Source of the DNA: a virus
Virus record (IMG/VR): IMGVR_UViG_3300036770_003938
Coordinates: 1-20,789 of that record
Direction: 5' to 3' (one strand)
DNA length: 20,789 bases
Position numbers and translations under genes: made by a program. The notes below the pieces were generated by a model. That model was given only the letters and a program-made list of their open reading frames with translations, was not told the origin of the DNA and searched no databases. Shown here piece after piece: positions 2,229 to 13,838 of the stretch (within the stretch, counting starts at the first letter, position 1; each line of letters opens with the position of its first letter).

Positions 2229-2252
2229 AGAGTCATAGTGAAAGGAGCGACT

Positions 2253-2612: not shown

Positions 2613-2619
2613 GGAGCGA

Positions 2620-3114
2620 ATGATGCAGACAGTTACCCTACGTGCCGAAGACTTCCGCACGGTCCACAACACACTCTGCGAGCTGCGCGGGCTGGTGCAG
2701 CGTATGGTGGAGAGCACTATCAAAGTAGACGATGTGCAGCGTATCATCCAGGGCTTCGAAGCAGGGTTGGCTGATGCCTATGCTCAGGACAACGAGGTCT
2801 TTGAGTCAAAGATGGACTACTACAGTGCCTTCCAAACGGAAAACGGGCTCAGCACGATCTGGTCGATCTACGAGCTGCCTGTACACGGGTTCCTAGACAA
2901 GCATCCGTTCCCTGGAGCCGTGCAGGTAGCTTATAAGCAGCATTGGGGCGAAAAGGCTGTGTTCGAGGAGATCAATGGCGCGACATGGGCCGATCTCTAT
3001 CGTGCTGCGGATGCTGCGATCCGTCGTAGCGGTGACGATCATCACATCTTTATCGAGCACTTTGTTGTAAATCCGCAACAGCCCGATCAGCTGCTGTTGA
3101 CAACTGGTAGCTGA
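2620..3114 (+). CDS. hypothetical phage protein
   Basis: 164 residues, starting at the double ATG 2620/2623 straight after GGAGCGA. The first 60 residues are helical and amphipathic (VTLRAEDFRTVHNTLCELRG onward), perhaps an oligomerising helix. The rest is mixed alpha/beta with several aromatic residues and an HH pair near residue 145. No family recognised. The 3' end carries the promoter of the next gene: its last codons (LLLTTGS) are encoded by the -35 region at 3097. Confidence 0.8.
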   Translation: MMQTVTLRAEDFRTVHNTLCELRGLVQRMVESTIKVDDVQRIIQGFEAGLADAYAQDNEVFESKMDYYSAFQTENGLSTIWSIYELPVHGFLDKHPFPGAVQVAYKQHWGEKAVFEEINGATWADLYRAADAAIRRSGDDHHIFIEHFVVNPQQPDQLLLTTGS

Positions 3115-3125: not shown

Positions 3126-3154
3126 AGAGTCATAGTTAACACAAAGGAGCGAAA

Positions 3155-3574
3155 ATGGGTACACGTAGTCGAGTTGGTGTAATGCATGGCGATGTCTGCA
3201 AATCAGTCTATTGCCACTATGACGGCTATCTCAGCCACACCGGACAGATGCTGCTGAAGCACTACGACTCAGTGAAAGCCAACGAATTGGTGTCGCTGGG
3301 CGATAATTCAGGTGTGCAGGAAACTGTCGCTGAGATGAACTTCTACAAGGACCGCGGTGAGACGGGCGTGGACTATCAGGTAGCCCACACTTTCGAGGAG
3401 TTCCTCGATCAGGTCGAACGCTGCTTCGCTGAGTACTACTACGTGATGCGAGACGGTGTTTGGTACGCCGGCTGCGTCTATGAAACAGACGGCTTGATCA
3501 AGGGTGGACTAGTGCCTTTGGACGAAGCTATCGCTGACGCACTGATCGCAGAAGCTGTAGCAGAAGACGAATAA
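3155..3574 (+). CDS. conserved phage protein of the 'MGTRS' type
   Basis: 139 residues, ATG 3155 with AAAGGAGCGAA directly upstream. It begins MGTRSRVGVM and continues with VYCHYDGYLSHTGQMLLKHY. This pattern (MGTRS.IG...G.V..IYCHWDGY..H.G..L..HY) recurs in hypothetical proteins of many tailed phages and some prophages. No biochemical role is known to me. The H/Y/D/G-rich segment around residues 20-30 looks like a conserved pocket. Single-gene transcript: own promoter in front and a hairpin terminator right after the stop. Confidence 0.85.
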   Translation: MGTRSRVGVMHGDVCKSVYCHYDGYLSHTGQMLLKHYDSVKANELVSLGDNSGVQETVAEMNFYKDRGETGVDYQVAHTFEEFLDQVERCFAEYYYVMRDGVWYAGCVYETDGLIKGGLVPLDEAIADALIAEAVAEDE

Positions 3575-3636: not shown

Positions 3637-3668
3637 AGAGTCATAGTTAACAAACAGGAGCGAAACTG

Positions 3669-4772
3669 ATGGACATTACTTTTACTGAGGGCTGGTACAA
3701 TATCAAAGGTCAACCCGTTAACGTTGGTGGTTTGACTTTCAAACTGGTAGAAGACTACAAGGTAGCCAAGAGCGGTGAAGGCTATGTTACTGTAGACGGT
3801 ACTAGTGTTATTGGGTTCCCTGAGCGCAATATCCGTATCAAATGCCGCCAGGGCGATTATGCTGTGGCAGGTGCTGTATCCAAACCCATTCCAGAAGGAG
3901 TAGCAATGCTGACAGCCCTTAAGGCTAAGAGTGTCAAAGGCGGTGAGGTCACTGACTTTACCCAGATCAAGGTCGCTGACAGTGCTGTAGCGCACGAGAC
4001 TGACGAAGAGATCATCGAGCGTACTCGCATGCGCTTTGAGATCCTCACTGACATGACCAAAGCTGTCAAGCAGGGCGATGTACGTGCTATGATCGTCACT
4101 GGCCCTCCGGGTGTTGGCAAATCGTTTGGCGTAGAAGAAGTACTTGCCAAAGACGACCTGTTCGACATGATGGGTCAGCGCAAGCCCAAGTACGAGATCG
4201 TCAAGGGTGCTATGAGTGCTATTGGCTTGTACTCTAAGCTCTACAAGTTCTCGGACGCTAAGAACATCCTTGTGTTCGACGACTGTGACTCAATTCTTTT
4301 GGACGACATTGCACTGAACATCTTGAAGGCTGCTTTGGACAGTTCCAAGAAGCGTACTATCTCTTGGAACACTGACAGCCGTATCCTGCGCTCTGAGGGC
4401 ATTCCAGACAAGTTTGAGTTCAAGGGCGGTGCTATCTTTATCACCAACTTGAAATTCGAGAACGTGCGTTCTAAGAAACTGCAAGAACACTTGGCTGCTC
4501 TCGAGTCACGCTGTCACTACATCGATCTGCGTATGGACACTGATCGTGAGAAGGTCTTGCGTATCAAGCAGATCGTCAAAGACGGCATGCTCAATGACTA
4601 CGATCTGTCAGACATCGCTAAGGACGAGGTCGTTAGCTTTATCGACGACAATCGCAACATTATGCGCGAGCTGAGCCTGCGCACTGTGCTCAAAGTAGCA
4701 GACCTGCGCAAGAGCTTCCCTAACAATTGGCAGAACATGGCCAAGGTCACTGTTATGAAAGGGGCATATTAA
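3669..4772 (+). CDS. AAA+ family ATPase
   Basis: 367 residues, ATG 3669 with CAGGAGCGAAACTG upstream. About 110 residues of N-terminal beta-rich sequence come before the ATPase core. Walker A is GPPGVGKS (145-152) and Walker B is LVFDDCD (201-207). A sensor-1-like asparagine sits in the AIFITN stretch and an arginine-rich helical segment follows, ending in a C-terminal lid-like region. Proteins of this kind occur in T4-like and other large phages; I do not know an assigned role. It is too short and lacks the signatures for clamp loader, terminase or helicase. It is first in an operon with 4774 and 4988. A second, MoxR-type ATPase lies 1.6 kb downstream under a related promoter. Possible roles are remodelling of host or phage complexes. 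Confidence 0.85.
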   Translation: MDITFTEGWYNIKGQPVNVGGLTFKLVEDYKVAKSGEGYVTVDGTSVIGFPERNIRIKCRQGDYAVAGAVSKPIPEGVAMLTALKAKSVKGGEVTDFTQIKVADSAVAHETDEEIIERTRMRFEILTDMTKAVKQGDVRAMIVTGPPGVGKSFGVEEVLAKDDLFDMMGQRKPKYEIVKGAMSAIGLYSKLYKFSDAKNILVFDDCDSILLDDIALNILKAALDSSKKRTISWNTDSRILRSEGIPDKFEFKGGAIFITNLKFENVRSKKLQEHLAALESRCHYIDLRMDTDREKVLRIKQIVKDGMLNDYDLSDIAKDEVVSFIDDNRNIMRELSLRTVLKVADLRKSFPNNWQNMAKVTVMKGAY

Positions 4773-5188: not shown

Positions 5189-5190
5189 AG

Positions 5191-5219
5191 TTGACCTTTA
5201 GATTGGTATACTGTAATAT
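5191..5219 (+). promoter_or_regulatory. divergent sigma70 promoter for the 5275 gene
   Basis: TTGACC (5191-5196), 17 bp, TAATAT (5214-5219). It is less consensus-like than the others, and the leader is different: it starts with a hairpin and lacks GGAGCGA. Confidence 0.65.
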
Positions 5220-5227
5220 AGTAGGAC

Positions 5228-5245
5228 GCTGATAGATAAATCAGC
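5228..5245 (+). promoter_or_regulatory. 5'-terminal mRNA hairpin of the 5275 gene
   Basis: Perfect stem GCTGAT/ATCAGC with loop AGATAA, beginning 1-2 bases after the predicted transcription start. A hairpin at the extreme 5' end typically protects an mRNA from 5'-end-dependent decay. A similar hairpin starts the 13461 transcript. Confidence 0.55.
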
Positions 5246-5274
5246 TAATTTTAACTTAAAAGGAAAAGGCAAAA

Positions 5275-5547
5275 ATGAAACGTTTCAATCCCGAAACCAA
5301 AACTTTCAAAGTGTTCAACGCACTCTACAACGGTAAGGTTCTTACCCCAGCTTCCGCCAAGCATGATCTTGGTGTTGGCAACTTGGCTGCAGAAGTCAGC
5401 CGCATCCGTCAGGGTGGCTATGCTGTTTATTCTAACAGCCGCAAAGCTGGCAACGGCGTCCAGGTAACTGAGTACGCTATGGGCAAGCCCAGCCGCGAAA
5501 TCGTTGCTCTTGGCTACAAGGCTAAGGCAATGGGCATCACCCTGTAA
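5275..5547 (+). CDS. winged-helix-like DNA-binding protein
   Basis: 90 residues, start set by AAAAGGAAAAGGC before ATG 5275. The order NGKVLTPASAKHDLGVGNLA (a helix-turn-helix-like unit), then AEVSRIRQGGYAVYSN and a basic beta-hairpin (SRKAGNGVQVTEYAMG), is the layout of small winged-helix proteins found in many T4-like phages. It probably binds DNA as a structural or regulatory protein. The gene looks built for high expression: preferred codons, a 5'-terminal mRNA hairpin and a strong terminator. It is monocistronic. It does not use the GGAGCGA site, while its own 3' UTR holds a loop complementary to that site. Confidence 0.75.
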   Translation: MKRFNPETKTFKVFNALYNGKVLTPASAKHDLGVGNLAAEVSRIRQGGYAVYSNSRKAGNGVQVTEYAMGKPSREIVALGYKAKAMGITL

Positions 5548-5624
5548 GAAACAGGTTTTCAAACCAAGCCGATTCGCTCCCGGGGCGGTTTGAAGGGTGT
5601 TGTGTAAAAGCAACACCCTTTTTT
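5548..5624 (+). ncRNA. candidate 3'UTR-derived regulatory RNA A
   Basis: Between the stop of 5275 and its terminator sits a stem-loop: TTCAAACC (5558-5565) pairs with GGTTTGAA (5587-5594) and GCC (5568-5570) with GGC (5584-5586). This leaves the loop GATTCGCTCCCGG (5571-5583). TTCGCTCC (5573-5580) is exactly complementary to GGAGCGAA, the ribosome-binding site of many genes in this window. A GC-rich terminator follows with no gap. This is the architecture of an sRNA processed from a 3' UTR; no RNA evidence is available. Copy B lies at 13773-13838. Confidence 0.5.
5595..5624 (+). terminator. strong intrinsic terminator after the 5275 gene
   Basis: Perfect 8-bp stem GGGTGTTG/CAACACCC (5595-5602 with 5611-5618), loop TGTAAAAG, then six T. 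Confidence 0.9.
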
Positions 5625-5644
5625 CTTGACCGGCACTCCACCGG

Positions 5645-5673
5645 TTGACAGTTTGGGCGGGTGGTGCTATAAT
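5645..5673 (+). promoter_or_regulatory. early sigma70 promoter for the 5701 gene
   Basis: Perfect TTGACA (5645-5650), 17 bp, TATAAT (5668-5673), with an extended -10 TGC. The leader contains the ACTGAGA element. Confidence 0.9.
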
Positions 5674-5700
5674 TGAAACACTGAGAGATTGGAGCGAACC

Positions 5701-6333
5701 ATGGAATTCACAGCAGATCAAGTTTGGGCCTACGCGGCCACAGCAGATCGCATCAACGGTGGTTACGTCAAGATGGACCAATGGTCTACTGATGGCCAAT
5801 GCGTGATCAAGCGGGCCAACAAACTCATGGTCAAAGAGTGGCTGCGCCAGAACTACTGTGGCGAGGACACTGAAGCAGATTGGGAGACTGGACGTAGGTT
5901 CCGTGCCCATTTCAACTCCTATACTTTCCTAGCTCTAGCTGGCAAGCTCAACGACTTCCAGCATCAGGCTCTGAAGATAGCACAGATGGACAAGTTCACT
6001 GGCCGGAATATGTTGGAGTTCGCGATCATATCTTGCCTGCCTGATGTTGCTCGTAGAGATCAAGCCCGCAAGGAGCTAATGAAGGAGCTATACGAGTCTA
6101 CCCCTCTACAGGGACAAGAGGGCGATTCCATCAGCGGGTACCTAGAAGTCACCGATTGCCGGTTCAACCCAAACTACAATAAGTTCCGGGTCCAGGGCCG
6201 TATGGGCGAAAGCTTCGTGGACTTCTGGTTTGGTCGCGAACTGTCAGCGGGCACTAACTTAGCGATCAAGGGCAAGATCAAGCGCCATCGTGGCGATAAA
6301 ACAACACAATTAAATTATGTTCGTATCGGTTGA
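5701..6333 (+). CDS. phage protein with OB-fold-like C-terminal domain
   Basis: 210 residues from ATG 5701 (TTGGAGCGAACC upstream; the ATG-less extension to 5689 is leader). Residues 1-140 are mostly helical and not recognised. The last ~65 residues (from about Y146) form an alternating strand pattern with VTDCRFNPNYNKFRVQGRM, an aromatic FVDFWFG strand, then AIKGKIKRHR and a final TQLNYVRI strand. This is the look of an OB-fold nucleic-acid-binding domain seen at the end of several T4-like phage proteins. It may bind RNA or DNA. Its TGA stop lies inside the -35 box of the next promoter. Together with 6409 and 7602 it forms a series of three separately promoted genes. Confidence 0.65.
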   Translation: MEFTADQVWAYAATADRINGGYVKMDQWSTDGQCVIKRANKLMVKEWLRQNYCGEDTEADWETGRRFRAHFNSYTFLALAGKLNDFQHQALKIAQMDKFTGRNMLEFAIISCLPDVARRDQARKELMKELYESTPLQGQEGDSISGYLEVTDCRFNPNYNKFRVQGRMGESFVDFWFGRELSAGTNLAIKGKIKRHRGDKTTQLNYVRIG

Positions 6334-7573: not shown

Positions 7574-7601
7574 AATGATACTGAGAGATTAGGAGCGTTT
7601 T

Positions 7602-8810
7602 ATGTCAGATCTTATCGATAAACTTACCACTGCCCGAGTAGGCCTACTGCTCAAAGCACCGTTCTTCGGCAACATGGCCACTCGTATGCGTCTAGTAGAT
7701 GCTACTGATTGGTGCCCTACCGCGGCAACTAACGGCCGTGACTTTTACTATAACAAGGACTTCGTATCTAAGCTCAGTGTTAAGAAGCTGGAGTTCCTGT
7801 TCGGTCACGAGATCCTCCACGCTGTCTTAGATCACTTTGGACGCCTTGGTAGCCGTGATGCCAAGTTGGCCAATATCGCTCAGGACTATGCTGTCAATCA
7901 GATCCTTGTAGACGAGCGTATCGGCGAGAAGATCAACGAAGTCCAGATCTGCTACGACAGCAAGTACCGTGGCATGGCCTGGGAAGAGATCTACGACGAG
8001 CTCTACGAGAAAGCAGAGAAGATCAGTATGGACAACCTGCTCAAAGAGCTAGGCGATCTGCTTGACGAGCATATCAAAGAGGGCGAAGGTCAGGGGCAAG
8101 GTGACAAGGACGGTAAAGGTAACCGCCCTGGCATCAGCAAAGAGGATCTGCAGAAGATCCGTGACGAAGTCAAAGAAGCAATGATCCAGAGTGCCGCGGC
8201 CGCAGGTGCAGGTAAGACTCCTGCCGCTATCCAACGCATGATCAAGAACTTGACTGAGCCCAAGATGAACTGGCGTCAATTGGTTCGTCAAGAGATCCAG
8301 AGCATCGTCCGCTCTAACTACTCTTTCACTCGTCCTAGCCGTAAGGGCTGGCAGACTGGTGCAGTATTGCCTGGCATGATTCCAGACACTACGATCGATG
8401 TGGCTATCGCTATTGATATGTCAGGGTCTATTGGCGACGATGATGCTAAGACATTCCTTAGCGAGATCAAAGGCATCATGGATCAATACGAGGACTTTAA
8501 GATCTCGTTGTGGTGCTTTGACACTGATGTCTATGCGTTCAAAGAGATCAGCCAAGACAACAGCCAGGACCTGCTTGAGTATCAACCTCAGGGTGGCGGA
8601 GGCACAGACTTCGAAGTGAACTTTACCTACATGAAAGAAAATGGTATTGAGCCTAAGAAGTTTATTATGTTCACAGACGGATACCCATGTGGTTCGTGGG
8701 GTGACGAGAACTACTGTGATACATTGTTCATTGTCAAAGGTAATACTTCCGCAGAAGCACCTTTTGGCCAGACTGTGATCTACGAAAAGGATGCGGCTCT
8801 AGTAGGTTAA
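7602..8810 (+). CDS. HExxH metallopeptidase-like / VWA domain protein (DUF2201-like)
   Basis: 402 residues. The N-terminal domain carries HEILHAVLDH (69-78), an HExxHxxxxH zinc-metallopeptidase signature. A linker rich in G, Q, D and K (about 160-180) and a helical stretch follow. The C-terminal VWA domain has a MIDAS: DMSGS (272-276), T335 in GGGGTDF and D359 in FTDG. This two-part layout matches bacterial DUF2201/VWA-like proteins that pair with MoxR ATPases. Likely role: a metal-dependent adaptor, perhaps a protease, powered by the MoxR-type ATPase encoded just upstream. The zinc and MIDAS residues are intact. Own promoter and AGGAGCG site; the start is unambiguous. What it acts on in infected cells is unknown. 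Confidence 0.85.
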   Translation: MSDLIDKLTTARVGLLLKAPFFGNMATRMRLVDATDWCPTAATNGRDFYYNKDFVSKLSVKKLEFLFGHEILHAVLDHFGRLGSRDAKLANIAQDYAVNQILVDERIGEKINEVQICYDSKYRGMAWEEIYDELYEKAEKISMDNLLKELGDLLDEHIKEGEGQGQGDKDGKGNRPGISKEDLQKIRDEVKEAMIQSAAAAGAGKTPAAIQRMIKNLTEPKMNWRQLVRQEIQSIVRSNYSFTRPSRKGWQTGAVLPGMIPDTTIDVAIAIDMSGSIGDDDAKTFLSEIKGIMDQYEDFKISLWCFDTDVYAFKEISQDNSQDLLEYQPQGGGGTDFEVNFTYMKENGIEPKKFIMFTDGYPCGSWGDENYCDTLFIVKGNTSAEAPFGQTVIYEKDAALVG

Positions 8811-8899: not shown

Positions 8900-8928
8900 T
8901 ACGATACTGAGACATTGAAAGGAGCGAT

Positions 8929-9192
8929 ATGAACATTTCAAACTTGGAAGCATATGTAGAGCAAGAGAATCGGTTTTCTGCGATCTTTGGAGGCAAGCCT
9001 CTGAGCCTGCTGAACAAATCAGATCGTCAGAAGATCGCAGACAAGATCGATTGTGCCCTTAGCCCGGAGAACTTGACCTGCGATGGTGAGTTGAGCCGAG
9101 CACAGGTGCAGAAGCGATATACCCAACTAACCCGTGTTGCTCGTGAATTGCAGAGCATTGATCCAACTGTAACCTTTATGGAGTTCGCATAA
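8929..9192 (+). CDS. small conserved phage protein ('LSPENLTCDGE' type)
   Basis: 87 residues, AAAGGAGCGAT before ATG 8929. The centre, ADKIDCALSPENLTCDGE, followed by L-SRAQV-KRY and a helix ending in TRVAREL, is a pattern I associate with small conserved proteins of T4-like phages. Mainly helical, two cysteines, no catalytic motif. Function unknown. The TAA overlaps the next start codon (TAATG). Confidence 0.8.
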   Translation: MNISNLEAYVEQENRFSAIFGGKPLSLLNKSDRQKIADKIDCALSPENLTCDGELSRAQVQKRYTQLTRVARELQSIDPTVTFMEFA

Positions 9193-9600: not shown

Positions 9601-9633
9601 TATGATACTGAGACAACGAACTAAGGAGCGAAG

Positions 9634-9981
9634 ATGACTGCAACATTTGATACCGTGAAAGTCCAGATGGCCCATGTACGTGCCCTGGCAGAAGCCCAGA
9701 GTGCCGCCCAGGCGTTCAGCGACAAGTACTTTGGCGGCCGTGATGGCGGACCCTGCGGCTTTGCCTGGGTCAACATCTACAAGGTGCGTTCCAACTCCAA
9801 ACTGGGCAAGGCCCTAGCAGAGGTTGGCTTCCGCAAGAGCTACGACGGCGGACTCCAGCTGTGGAACAAGTGGTGGCCCGGTCAATCCGTGGATGCCGCT
9901 GAGCACGGTGCTACGGCCTACGCGGCTGTGATGAAAGAAGAGCTGGGCTTGGACTTCTACAGCGGTAGCAGGTTGGACTGA
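9634..9981 (+). CDS. conserved phage protein ('CGFAWVN' type)
   Basis: 115 residues, AAGGAGCGAAG before ATG 9634. The segment GPCGFAWVNIYKVRSNSKLG, then F-RKSYDGGLQLWN and a C-terminal Y-SGSRLD, matches a hypothetical protein family seen in many tailed phages. Mixed alpha/beta, one cysteine, no membrane span. No known activity. Its stop overlaps ATG 9981 of the next gene. Confidence 0.85.
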   Translation: MTATFDTVKVQMAHVRALAEAQSAAQAFSDKYFGGRDGGPCGFAWVNIYKVRSNSKLGKALAEVGFRKSYDGGLQLWNKWWPGQSVDAAEHGATAYAAVMKEELGLDFYSGSRLD

Positions 9982-10204: not shown

Positions 10205-10223
10205 GAATAGCAAGGAGCGAAAG

Positions 10224-10490
10224 ATGTATATTGCAATGATGGATGTCAAAGAGCAGGAACAAGTGGTCCGCGCTCTCAAAGGTCCCCAATTTGTCCGTGA
10301 GAACCACGGTAGCCTGTTTGATCGTGGCAGTGCCGATTCCTACTACGGTCGAGCACCTGATCCGCACTACGGTGGTGTAGGCGGTGATTCAGGTCCGCGT
10401 GTCACTGTCCAGGACAAAGACTCAGTAGCCGAATACATGGCTGGCTACGAGGACAACGAGAAGTCCGGCGGTAAGAAGGACTACCGTTAA
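10224..10490 (+). CDS. conserved phage protein ('MYIA-MDVK' type)
   Basis: 88 residues from ATG 10224 (AAGGAGCGAAAG upstream; the GTG at 10203 is in the leader). It starts MYIAMMDVKEQEQVVRALKG and contains NHGSLFDRGSADSYYGR, DPHYGG and a C-terminal AGYEDNEKSGGKKDYR. These are features of a small protein present in very many tailed phages. Rich in G, D and Y, probably with little regular structure at its end. Function unknown. Its TAA overlaps the next ATG. Confidence 0.85.
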   Translation: MYIAMMDVKEQEQVVRALKGPQFVRENHGSLFDRGSADSYYGRAPDPHYGGVGGDSGPRVTVQDKDSVAEYMAGYEDNEKSGGKKDYR

Positions 10491-10946: not shown

Positions 10947-10973
10947 ACTAATACTGAAACAAAGGAGCGAACT

Positions 10974-11180
10974 ATGAGTTTTACCTGGACTGCCGCAGAT
11001 GCTCGCAAGAGCCGCGCATACACCTGCAAGCTCATCGAGCTAGGTGAAGAGGGTGTGGTAGATTGGGAGAGCTTGGCCCGTGATCTGCTGAACTGGATGA
11101 GCGAGGACGAGGTGCAACAGTTTGCTCTGAAAAACGACTTCCTTCCTGAACTCTACGAAGACGAGTTTGAAGATGAGTAA
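10974..11180 (+). CDS. small acidic phage protein
   Basis: 68 residues, AAAGGAGCGAACT before ATG 10974. Helical and acidic, with LIELGEEGVVDWESLARDLL and NWMSEDEVQQFA. This arrangement is typical of a small conserved T4-like phage protein of unknown function. No cysteine cluster or membrane span (one Cys). The strongly acidic tail (YEDEFEDE) overlaps the start of 11173. Confidence 0.8.
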   Translation: MSFTWTAADARKSRAYTCKLIELGEEGVVDWESLARDLLNWMSEDEVQQFALKNDFLPELYEDEFEDE

Positions 11181-11801: not shown

Positions 11802-11820
11802 AAACGATTAGGAGCGAAAG

Positions 11821-12084
11821 ATGGCAAAAACAGCACAACAGAAGTTCAACGAATATCTCGACGAGTGCCACAGCACCACAGACGCGATCAACGCATTTGT
11901 TAATGCATCGCAAGAGAACTACAACGGATATGCCTATGCCGCAGGCGCTTTGACTATGATCCTTGCTGATGCGATCTCAGAACTGCCCAAAGCACGTCGA
12001 GCTGACTTCCGTGATCGACTCAACAGGGAAGCACAGAAGCAGAAGAATGAACTGCTGGCTAAGATGCTCAAGGAGACAGCATGA
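11821..12084 (+). CDS. hypothetical helical protein
   Basis: 87 residues, TAGGAGCGAAAG before ATG 11821. Almost entirely helical, with an N-terminal KTAQQKFNEYLDEC and a C-terminal R/K/E-rich helix that could form a coiled coil (about residues 58-85). No known family. Its stop overlaps ATG 12081. Confidence 0.75.
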   Translation: MAKTAQQKFNEYLDECHSTTDAINAFVNASQENYNGYAYAAGALTMILADAISELPKARRADFRDRLNREAQKQKNELLAKMLKETA

Positions 12085-12281
12085 TCACCGAAACAGAGTT
12101 GAAATGGATTCGTATGGCTATGGGCACAGATATGTCACCCATGCAGATGGCCAAGACCTATCGTGTGATCGCACAGATCTTCCAAAAAGCCTCTGACCGA
12201 ATCGAAATGAATTTGGTTGACAAAGTGGACGATCGGTTGTATAATACTAATACTGAGACAAAGGAGCGACGTTATGCCTAA
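12081..12281 (+). CDS. small protein whose C-terminus is encoded by a promoter
   Basis: 66 residues, ATGA-coupled to 11821. The first part (ETELKWIRMAMGTDMSPMQM then AKTYRVIAQIF) has a weak helix-turn-helix look. From about residue 44, the coding sequence runs through the whole promoter (12217-12245), leader and GGAGCGA site of the next gene and stops 8 bases inside it. The tail DKVDDRLYNTNTETKERRYA is therefore a translated regulatory cassette, unlikely to have been selected as protein. The original gene may have been shorter. Confidence 0.65.
   Translation: MITETELKWIRMAMGTDMSPMQMAKTYRVIAQIFQKASDRIEMNLVDKVDDRLYNTNTETKERRYA
12217..12245 (+). promoter_or_regulatory. early sigma70 promoter inside a coding region
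   Basis: Perfect TTGACA (12217-12222), 17 bp, TATAAT (12240-12245), followed by ACTAATACTGAGAC and AAAGGAGCGA. It lies wholly within the 12081 coding sequence. Confidence 0.85.
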
Positions 12282-12903
12282 TTGGTGTTCTAACTACATA
12301 TCCGTGCGTGGCACGAACTCTGCAGAGATCAAGCGTTTGGCAGATGCATTTGATGCCGGTGAACTCTGCAATGCGGTGATCCCCTGTCCAGAAGATCTGC
12401 AGATCACTGCTGGTCGTGTAGGGGATGACAACAACCCCGAGCAGATTGAGCTCGAGCGTAAGACCAAAGAGAACCTAGAGAAGTATGGTGTGGCTAACTG
12501 GTATGACTTCCAGACTAGCCGTTGGGGCACCAAATGGGACATTTCGGTGCATTCAGAGTGTGAGCGTAGCGAGGACGGACTCAGTTTCGAAGGTCACTTT
12601 GACACTGCTTGGTCGCCGCCCATGGGTGTTGTTGAGGAGTTGGTTGAGCGTGGATTCGAAGTCACTCTTTACTACTACGAGCCAGGCATGGCCTATGTAG
12701 GCAAGTATGAAGATGGCTGTGATGACTACTATGATCTCAGCGGTTTGGATTCGTCTACAGTGATCGCAGCCATTGGCAACGAATTGGATGACTTCTTTGG
12801 TATCTCAGAGTCTATGGCTGAATACGAAGCAGAGAACGCTGAGGAAGAGCTCACAGAGTGGCTCAAAGATGGCGCTGAGAAGCGTGAGCTGAAGACTGTA
12901 TGA
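12274..12903 (+). CDS. Api92/DUF1281-like protein (YubB ferredoxin-like domain)
   Basis: 209 residues from ATG 12274 (AAAGGAGCGACGTT upstream; the TTG at 12217 is the -35 box). Starts MPNWCSNYISVRG and contains PCPEDL, NWYDFQTSRWGTKWDI, a FDTAWSPPMG stretch, then FEVTLYYYEPGMAYVGKYED. These are the hallmarks of the Api92-like/DUF1281 family, a ferredoxin-like fold found in phages, plasmids and mobile elements. Function unknown; the family occurs on conjugative plasmids as YubB. The C-terminal 40 residues are a charged acidic helix. The TGA overlaps ATG 12900. Confidence 0.85.
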   Translation: MPNWCSNYISVRGTNSAEIKRLADAFDAGELCNAVIPCPEDLQITAGRVGDDNNPEQIELERKTKENLEKYGVANWYDFQTSRWGTKWDISVHSECERSEDGLSFEGHFDTAWSPPMGVVEELVERGFEVTLYYYEPGMAYVGKYEDGCDDYYDLSGLDSSTVIAAIGNELDDFFGISESMAEYEAENAEEELTEWLKDGAEKRELKTV

Positions 12904-13460: not shown

Positions 13461-13775
13461 ATGGCAACAGATAAGAAATTCGCAGTAGCAGGTGTAAGCA
13501 CCCAGAACGGTAAGACCAAGGTGCGTTTCGCTAACGACTCGACCCGCATCAAGATCCTGGTCAAGAACGGACACACGGACATCGAGCTGATCGATCTTCC
13601 CCGTGAGATGACCAAAGCTGAGATCGCACAGTACATGCATGAACAAGACTTCGCCAAAGGCCGAGTACATGTCATGGATGCTATCAAAGATCTAGCTAAG
13701 AAGAATAAGGTTGCTGTGAAGCAATCCAAGGCACAGACCCTCGAGGAGGTTCTGGCCACTCCCGCCCTAGTGTGA
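13461..13775 (+). CDS. conserved T4-like phage protein, probably highly expressed
   Basis: 104 residues with TTAGGAGATAG (not GGAGCGA) before ATG 13461. It begins KFAVAGVSTQNGKTKVRFAN, then R-IKILVKNGHTDIELIDLP and REMTKAEIA, a pattern I associate with a small conserved protein of T4-like phages, especially marine ones. Basic in the second half. Like 5275, it has a 5'-terminal hairpin, a 3' UTR with an anti-RBS stem-loop and a strong terminator, and is monocistronic. Function unknown; nucleic-acid binding is possible. Confidence 0.8.
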   Translation: MATDKKFAVAGVSTQNGKTKVRFANDSTRIKILVKNGHTDIELIDLPREMTKAEIAQYMHEQDFAKGRVHVMDAIKDLAKKNKVAVKQSKAQTLEEVLATPALV

Positions 13776-13838
13776 AGACCGACTCGCTCCCGGTTTAGGG
13801 TGGTTTCAGGGGCTGCTGTAATGGCAGCTCCTTTTTTT
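13773..13838 (+). ncRNA. candidate 3'UTR-derived regulatory RNA B
   Basis: TGAAGACC (13773-13780, G13777 bulged) pairs with GGTTTCA (13802-13808). The loop (13781-13801) begins GACTCGCTCCCGG, differing from the loop of RNA A at one base. TCGCTCC (13784-13790) is complementary to GGAGCGA. The terminator follows at once. The stem base uses the stop codon of 13461, so translation could affect its folding. Confidence 0.5.
13809..13838 (+). terminator. strong intrinsic terminator after the 13461 gene
   Basis: Stem GGGGCTGC/GCAGCTCC (13809-13816 with 13824-13831, one G-U), loop TGTAATG, then seven T. Confidence 0.9.

Follow-up and report, generated by a model that had tools for sequence, protein, structure and literature searches.

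What might a small hairpin do when it lies directly behind a phage gene and displays, in its loop, the exact complement of the ribosome-binding site (RBS) of other genes of the same phage? This question is raised by a stretch of viral DNA of 20,789 nucleotides, IMG/VR record IMGVR_UViG_3300036770_003938, hereafter referred to as the window. Its initial annotation proposed that the 3′ end of a winged-helix gene could be an sRNA that represses, or titrates against, the early mRNAs of the phage. Comparison with related sequences makes it quite probable, in our view, that uncultured large freshwater phages use antisense RNAs located in 3′ untranslated regions (3′UTRs), which would pair with dedicated RBSs and block the translation of a whole set of genes. 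The features on which the argument is built are collected in Table 1.

Table 1. Positions of the two RNA elements, their host genes and the putative target RBSs in the window
Feature	Position	Strand	Sequence or remark
Target RBS	2244-2250	+	GGAGCGA(C); gene 2253-2612
Target RBS	2613-2620	+	GGAGCGAA; gene 2620-3114
Target RBS	3146-3153	+	GGAGCGAA; gene 3155-3574, phrog_1987
Target RBS	3657-3664	+	GGAGCGAA; AAA ATPase gene 3669-4772, phrog_1250
Sigma70-like promoter of RNA A host gene	5191-5219	+	TTGACC-17-TAATAT; consensus match only
5′ leader hairpin of the HTH mRNA	5228-5245	+	GCTGAT...ATCAGC; conserved in relatives
RBS of the HTH host gene	5258-5270	+	AAAAGGAAAAGGC; lacks complementarity to the loop
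Host gene of RNA A	5275-5547	+	90-aa winged-helix protein; Pfam HTH_39, phrog_4973
RNA A anti-RBS hairpin	5558-5594	+	8 bp + AA bulge + 3 bp
RNA A stem arms	5558-5565 / 5587-5594		TTCAAACC / GGTTTGAA; AA bulge; inner GCC/GGC
RNA A invariant loop	5571-5583	+	GATTCGCTCCCGG; 13 nt
Intrinsic terminator	5592-5624	+	strong; immediately 3′ of RNA A
Sigma70-like promoter of gene 5701-6333	5645-5673		12 of 12
Target RBS	5691-5698	+	GGAGCGAA; gene 5701-6333
Partial target RBS	7592-7597	+	GGAGCG(TTTT); gene 7602-8810, DUF2201/VWA-like
Target RBS	8921-8927	+	GGAGCGA(T); gene 8929-9192
Target RBS	9625-9632	+	GGAGCGAA; gene 9634-9981
Target RBS	10214-10221	+	GGAGCGAA; gene 10224-10490
Target RBS	10964-10971	+	GGAGCGAA; gene 10974-11180
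Target RBS	11811-11818	+	GGAGCGAA; gene 11821-12084
Target RBS	12263-12269	+	GGAGCGA(C); gene 12274-12903, phrog_20518-like
Host gene of RNA B	13461-13775	+	104-aa protein, function unassigned; RBS GGAGATAG, not a target
RNA B hairpin	13762-13803	+	outer stem CCGCCCTA/TAGGGTGG, inner CCG/CGG
RNA B loop	13781-13793	+	GACTCGCTCCCGG; core TCGCTCC, 7 nt complementary to GGAGCGA

Structure of the hairpin behind the winged-helix gene

The stem of 8 + 3 bp, the loop and the adjoining terminator described in the initial annotation are all present (RNA A), and the segment 5548-5624 has a folding z-score of -3.27. Loop positions 5573-5580 (TTCGCTCC) are the exact complement of GGAGCGAA. The annotated pairing is, however, not the one of minimum free energy when the window sequence is folded alone with ViennaRNA, which returns a shifted pairing (-29.0 versus -25.4 kcal/mol) that engages part of UUCG with CGGG. 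We prefer the annotated outer stem over this shifted structure because it is backed by covariation among the relatives (see below). Over 112 relatives, the mean unpaired probability of the loop core is 0.71, as compared with 0.45 when the flanks are shuffled. Neither RNA A nor the second element of the window, RNA B, matches an Rfam 15 family at gathering thresholds, and a comparison of positions 5190-5720 with Rfam yielded nothing at E ≤ 1.

The winged-helix (HTH) gene that hosts RNA A does not share the RBS of the putative targets: GGAGCG is found in none of 80 distinct HTH leaders of relatives. No sigma70-like promoter was found within the HTH gene upstream of RNA A. The conserved hairpin in the leader of its mRNA could confer unusual stability on the transcript. 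A second conserved string, ACCGGCACTCC, lies at 5628-5644, past the RNA A terminator and ahead of the next promoter; it occupies the same place in most relatives, in some of them as GGCCGGCACTCTCC, and a GGAGTG RBS would be a potential pairing partner of its CACTCC.

Loop conservation and stem covariation

Relatives were collected with the HTH protein, a search that is unbiased toward the loop and that gave 80 IMG/VR contigs. A CCGATTCGCTCCCGGGG-type hairpin with an unchanged loop follows the gene in 73 of them, and the other seven are devoid of any such hairpin. With the addition of a second, more distant HTH protein search, the collection rose to 99 distinct 3′UTRs, 70 of which contain the exact 13-nt loop; the rest are at least four mismatches away from it, i.e. 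the loop is absent. RNA A is thus all-or-none, with no near miss in the entire set, and because of this no compensatory pair could be recovered: a point-mutated loop accompanied by the matching change in the RBSs was sought among the relatives and not found.

The stem behaves differently. Among 20 distinct RNA A stems that align gap-free, both sides have changed in 6 of 10 pairs, the number of double-changed cells being 33 as against 10.5 ± 2.8 after shuffling; the covariation score is 0.429, and at most 0.147 for slid partners. A loop that drifts while the RBSs are conserved would have spoken against the proposed function. The comparison gave the opposite outcome, with an invariant loop on covarying stems.

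A dedicated RBS class

On both strands of the window together, GGAGCGAA occurs 10 times exactly, where 0.56 would be expected, and none of 100 shuffles reached 10. The estimate of about a dozen complementary RBSs made at the outset holds for GGAGCG, which precedes 12 starts, but the exact GGAGCGAA stands at only eight of these; the others read GGAGCGAC/T (at 2244, 8921 and 12263) or GGAGCGTT (at 7592). Predicted duplexes between the loop and the 12 target leaders range from -12.0 to -15.6 kcal/mol, as compared with -5.6 to -10.2 kcal/mol for a generic 16S tail, which may differ from that of the host. With -3.4 kcal/mol, the AAAAGGAAAAGGC of the HTH gene is unfit for the loop, in agreement with the earlier remark that this RBS cannot pair with it. 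Most of the targets encode proteins without a known function, and no antirepressor (ant) was recognised among their genes. We also considered a kissing interaction, in which the RBS would be displayed in a leader hairpin, and rejected it, GGAGCGA leaders being no more structured than other GGAG leaders. Three tRNA genes (Rfam tRNA) stand in a row at 1179-1431.

Among contigs in which HTH is followed by the loop, GGAGCGA makes up 320 of 803 distinct GGAG-type RBSs, versus 1 of 161 in HTH-bearing contigs without it; counted by gene family, the figures are 40/216 and 3/225, respectively. The most frequent 8-mers before starts are AGGAGCGA and GGAGCGAA (279 and 242 of 1210). Even so, in a 353-kb relative (G001) only 16 of 214 GGAG-type starts carry GGAGCGA, and half of these 16 lie in the 17 kb that surround RNA A and RNA B. 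A sigma70-like promoter is found upstream of 334 of 345 GGAGCGA starts, as opposed to 330 of 865 other starts. Since GGAGCGA is a minority among the RBSs, is linked to promoters and is avoided by the host genes of the loop, the GGAGCGA starts appear to form a regulon rather than to reflect a phage-wide RBS. The promoters also lend indirect support to the suggestion that the targets are early mRNAs, a label that has to rest on them because so few of the encoded proteins have an assigned function.

The above comparison scored the loop only after HTH, and whole genomes revealed that several of the ‘minus’ phages carry it elsewhere. The loop pattern GRYTCGCTCCC and GGAGCGA(N1-8)ATG were counted over the entire sequence of 22 long relatives (108-400 kb). 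Such starts number 8-21 in each of the 14 that carry the loop and 0-3 in each of the eight that do not, a co-occurrence that does not amount to 22 independent events, the genomes being related and some of them fragments. Several of the 14 lack a hairpin after HTH and have the loop at another place; the RBS class therefore tracks the presence of the loop and not the HTH locus. That loop and RBS come and go together over these genomes supports the interpretation of the element as an anti-RBS RNA.

At three sites the complementarity to the loop extends over 11-13 nt, the RBS being CCGGGAGCGAATC(G)ATG or GGGGGAGCGAATCTATG (G001:40294, G003:9262 and G002:299826; L276, L272 and L271). Judging by this match, the genes concerned are candidates for the strongest targets. 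The product encoded at G001:40294 is a small protein with the signal-like start MVKFIIATILMATAS.

The same loop after unrelated genes

RNA B contains a second copy of the loop (13779-13793), with one base changed, and follows an unrelated host gene; including its 3′ end, it spans 13762-13833. The end of the coding sequence pairs with the 3′UTR to form its outer stem, and its predicted z-score, -1.49, is modest. When relatives of this host gene were collected by protein, 58 distinct 3′UTRs were obtained, of which 46 contain the element, 30 of them in exact form. The non-exact loops are GACTCGCTCCC, GGTTCGCTCCC or AGTTCGCTCCT, with the variation falling mostly outside the 7-nt core: TCGCTCC is intact in 43 of the 46, and the C-to-U change in the other three still allows G-U pairing. 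No GGAGCG is present among the RNA B host-gene leaders listed.

In five other large relatives, the AAA ATPase gene (homologous to window 3669-4772) has two tandem copies of the loop behind it, the second copy often being the terminator hairpin itself, and a sixth large relative has two copies after HTH. The stems in the HTH, RNA B and AAA ATPase contexts are unrelated; the loop is common to all.

Proposed mechanism and alternative explanations

The comparative data establish, at the level of sequence, the structure, the invariance of the loop, the RBS regulon, its co-occurrence with the loop and the fact that the host genes are exempt, and pairing between loop and RBS is accordingly well supported by them. 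We propose that RNA A (5558-5624) and RNA B would act as 3′ ends of phage mRNAs, or as short RNAs freed from these. Their loop core UUCGCUCC would pair with GGAGCGAA, the dedicated RBS of promoter-proximal phage genes, and mask the Shine-Dalgarno sequence, so that initiation would be blocked on all of these genes; those that host the loop use other RBSs and would escape. The RBS tail CGAA would thus serve as an address and the loop as its reader in an RNA-based regulon switch. Blocked initiation would be the natural outcome because the pairing covers the Shine-Dalgarno sequence, as in established sRNA mechanisms such as that of LhrC (PMC4132741). The accumulation of the RNAs, the direction of the repression and its timing, with early genes being shut down once the level of RNA A and RNA B is high enough, are what we infer from this arrangement. 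Whether a class of large lytic phages uses a ‘translational address code’, in which early genes would carry a dedicated RBS and interchangeable anti-RBS loops would shut early translation, and perhaps that of a superinfecting sibling as well, is close to an even question, with the balance tipping slightly against it.

Complementarity gives no direction, and the data on pairing and co-occurrence would also fit if the abundant GGAGCGAA mRNAs acted as a sponge on the 3′ ends of the two host mRNAs, affecting their stability or release. We consider this reversed titration unlikely. Three unrelated genes are followed by the loop, on stems that are likewise unrelated; a few loops facing 8-21 clustered sites per genome is the one-to-many arrangement typical of a repressor RNA; and the sites coincide exactly with the Shine-Dalgarno sequence, a position at which pairing stops translation of the target itself.

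Chance or shared descent could also be invoked for the match of the loop, if GGAGCGA were simply the favourite RBS of the clade and the hairpin a protein-bound or stabilising 3′ element. The genomes are indeed related, and the phages with the loop all come from one broad group. This explanation is nevertheless very improbable, given that GGAGCGA is a minority RBS tied to promoters, that the chance of an exact 8-nt match within a loop of 13 nt is ~1e-4 (simple arithmetic), that the loop shifts between genes while the RBS class stays, and that HTH relatives without the loop anywhere are also without the RBS class. Hardly any weight can be given to a third possibility, namely that GGAGCGAA and its reverse complement are DNA operators bound by the HTH_39 protein, the copy in the 3′UTR being one more site. 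It would account for the winged-helix protein encoded by the host gene and for the sigma70-like promoters just upstream of the target starts, but the sites are fixed in the sense direction with the spacing of an RBS, the loop is antisense in every case and lies within a covarying hairpin with a terminator next to it, and copies are found behind the ATPase gene in genomes that lack a hairpin at HTH. Repression by an anti-RBS RNA is thus the reading that we retain.

Relation to known regulators

In phage T4, the early mRNAs are subject to regulon-wide translational repression at the RBS by the protein RegA (Pfam Translat_reg, PF01818). What we propose for RNA A and RNA B is similar in scope, except that the repressor would be an RNA. 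A homolog of RegA (PF01818) was found in none of the 22 long relatives, by a search that did find RegA in Pelagibacter phage HTVC008M. If our interpretation is correct, large phages possess an RNA-made, regulon-wide post-transcriptional switch, a type of control known mainly in protein form, as with RegA. Raw sequence suffices to recognise both the address GGAGCGAA and the loop, so that co-regulated gene sets of uncultured phages might be read directly. The element would also represent a simple, modular anti-RBS part testable in E. coli reporters, and it would offer a possible reason for the existence of several RBS types in one phage.

Small RNAs with UCCC motifs or C-rich loops that bind the Shine-Dalgarno sequence are known in bacteria, including LhrC of Listeria, RsaE, RNAIII and SprD of S. 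aureus and FsrA of B. subtilis (PMC4132741). RNA A and RNA B may be likened to them in function, with no sequence relation implied: a C-rich motif, here UUCGCUCC, stands in an unpaired loop, occurs in multiple copies and is complementary to the Shine-Dalgarno sequence of several targets, where pairing would block initiation. They differ from these sRNAs in being phage-encoded and located in 3′UTRs, with interchangeable stems and host genes, and in reading an extended Shine-Dalgarno address of 8 nt, GGAGCGAA, that is common to the targets. Phages, too, encode antisense RNAs that block translation of a phage mRNA by pairing at its RBS, namely c4 of P1/P7 and sar of P22 (PMC12197685). As in c4, the complementary bases of RNA A and RNA B lie in loops. 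However, c4 and sar each serve one antirepressor gene in a temperate phage, whereas here one loop, carried by three unrelated host genes, faces 8-21 starts; with many targets instead of a single ant gene, and no Rfam match that would indicate homologous sequence, RNA A and RNA B do not belong to that class. In its layout, with a hairpin and a Rho-independent terminator closing a coding gene, the putative RNA resembles sRNAs derived from 3′UTRs.

No anti-RBS element was found in sequenced phage isolates. The RNA B host gene has no homolog in cultured phages, and the sole one of the HTH gene is in Pelagibacter phage HTVC008M (33% identity). Three tandem hairpins, with loops UAGCUCGUAAAU, CUCUCGUAAAU and AUCUCUUUAAAA, follow this HTH_39 homolog (L195:3230-3330; 91.77-91.87 kb). 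They were considered as a parallel case (loop CUCGUAAAU) and discarded, the complement not being an RBS motif in that phage. Bacterial genomes (257 Gb) contain 36 matches of the 17-mer, about the number expected by chance, and none lies beside homologs of the HTH or RNA B genes. We found no earlier description of an anti-RBS element in the literature, subscription papers being outside the scope of the search.

A sister clade with a different loop

The GGAGCGA/anti-RBS code is not universal. In 34 contigs, HTH is followed by TCGCTCC in unpaired form (in a few contigs, TTGCTCC or CCGCTCC) and then by a hairpin with the loop GGUAGUGU. The RBSs of this clade are mostly GGAGCA (42/143 families), and ACACTA, the complement of UAGUGU, is present in 33 of 143 of its leaders versus 6 of 216. 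These observations are suggestive of a rewritten code, in which the loop GGUAGUGU would be matched by leaders with ACACUA; they are no more than suggestive because ACACTA ranks only tenth among the enriched 6-mers. Among the relatives, this clade comes closest to the compensatory pair of loop and RBS changes mentioned above. The region downstream of HTH in L298-L331 is highly conserved, reading TCGCTCC-GAAGTCCTGGG-GGTAGTGT-CCCAGGCA, with a possible GGGG/CCCC pseudoknot. The same scaffold is found in L212, L219 and L451, with ATTCGCTCC as the loop instead.
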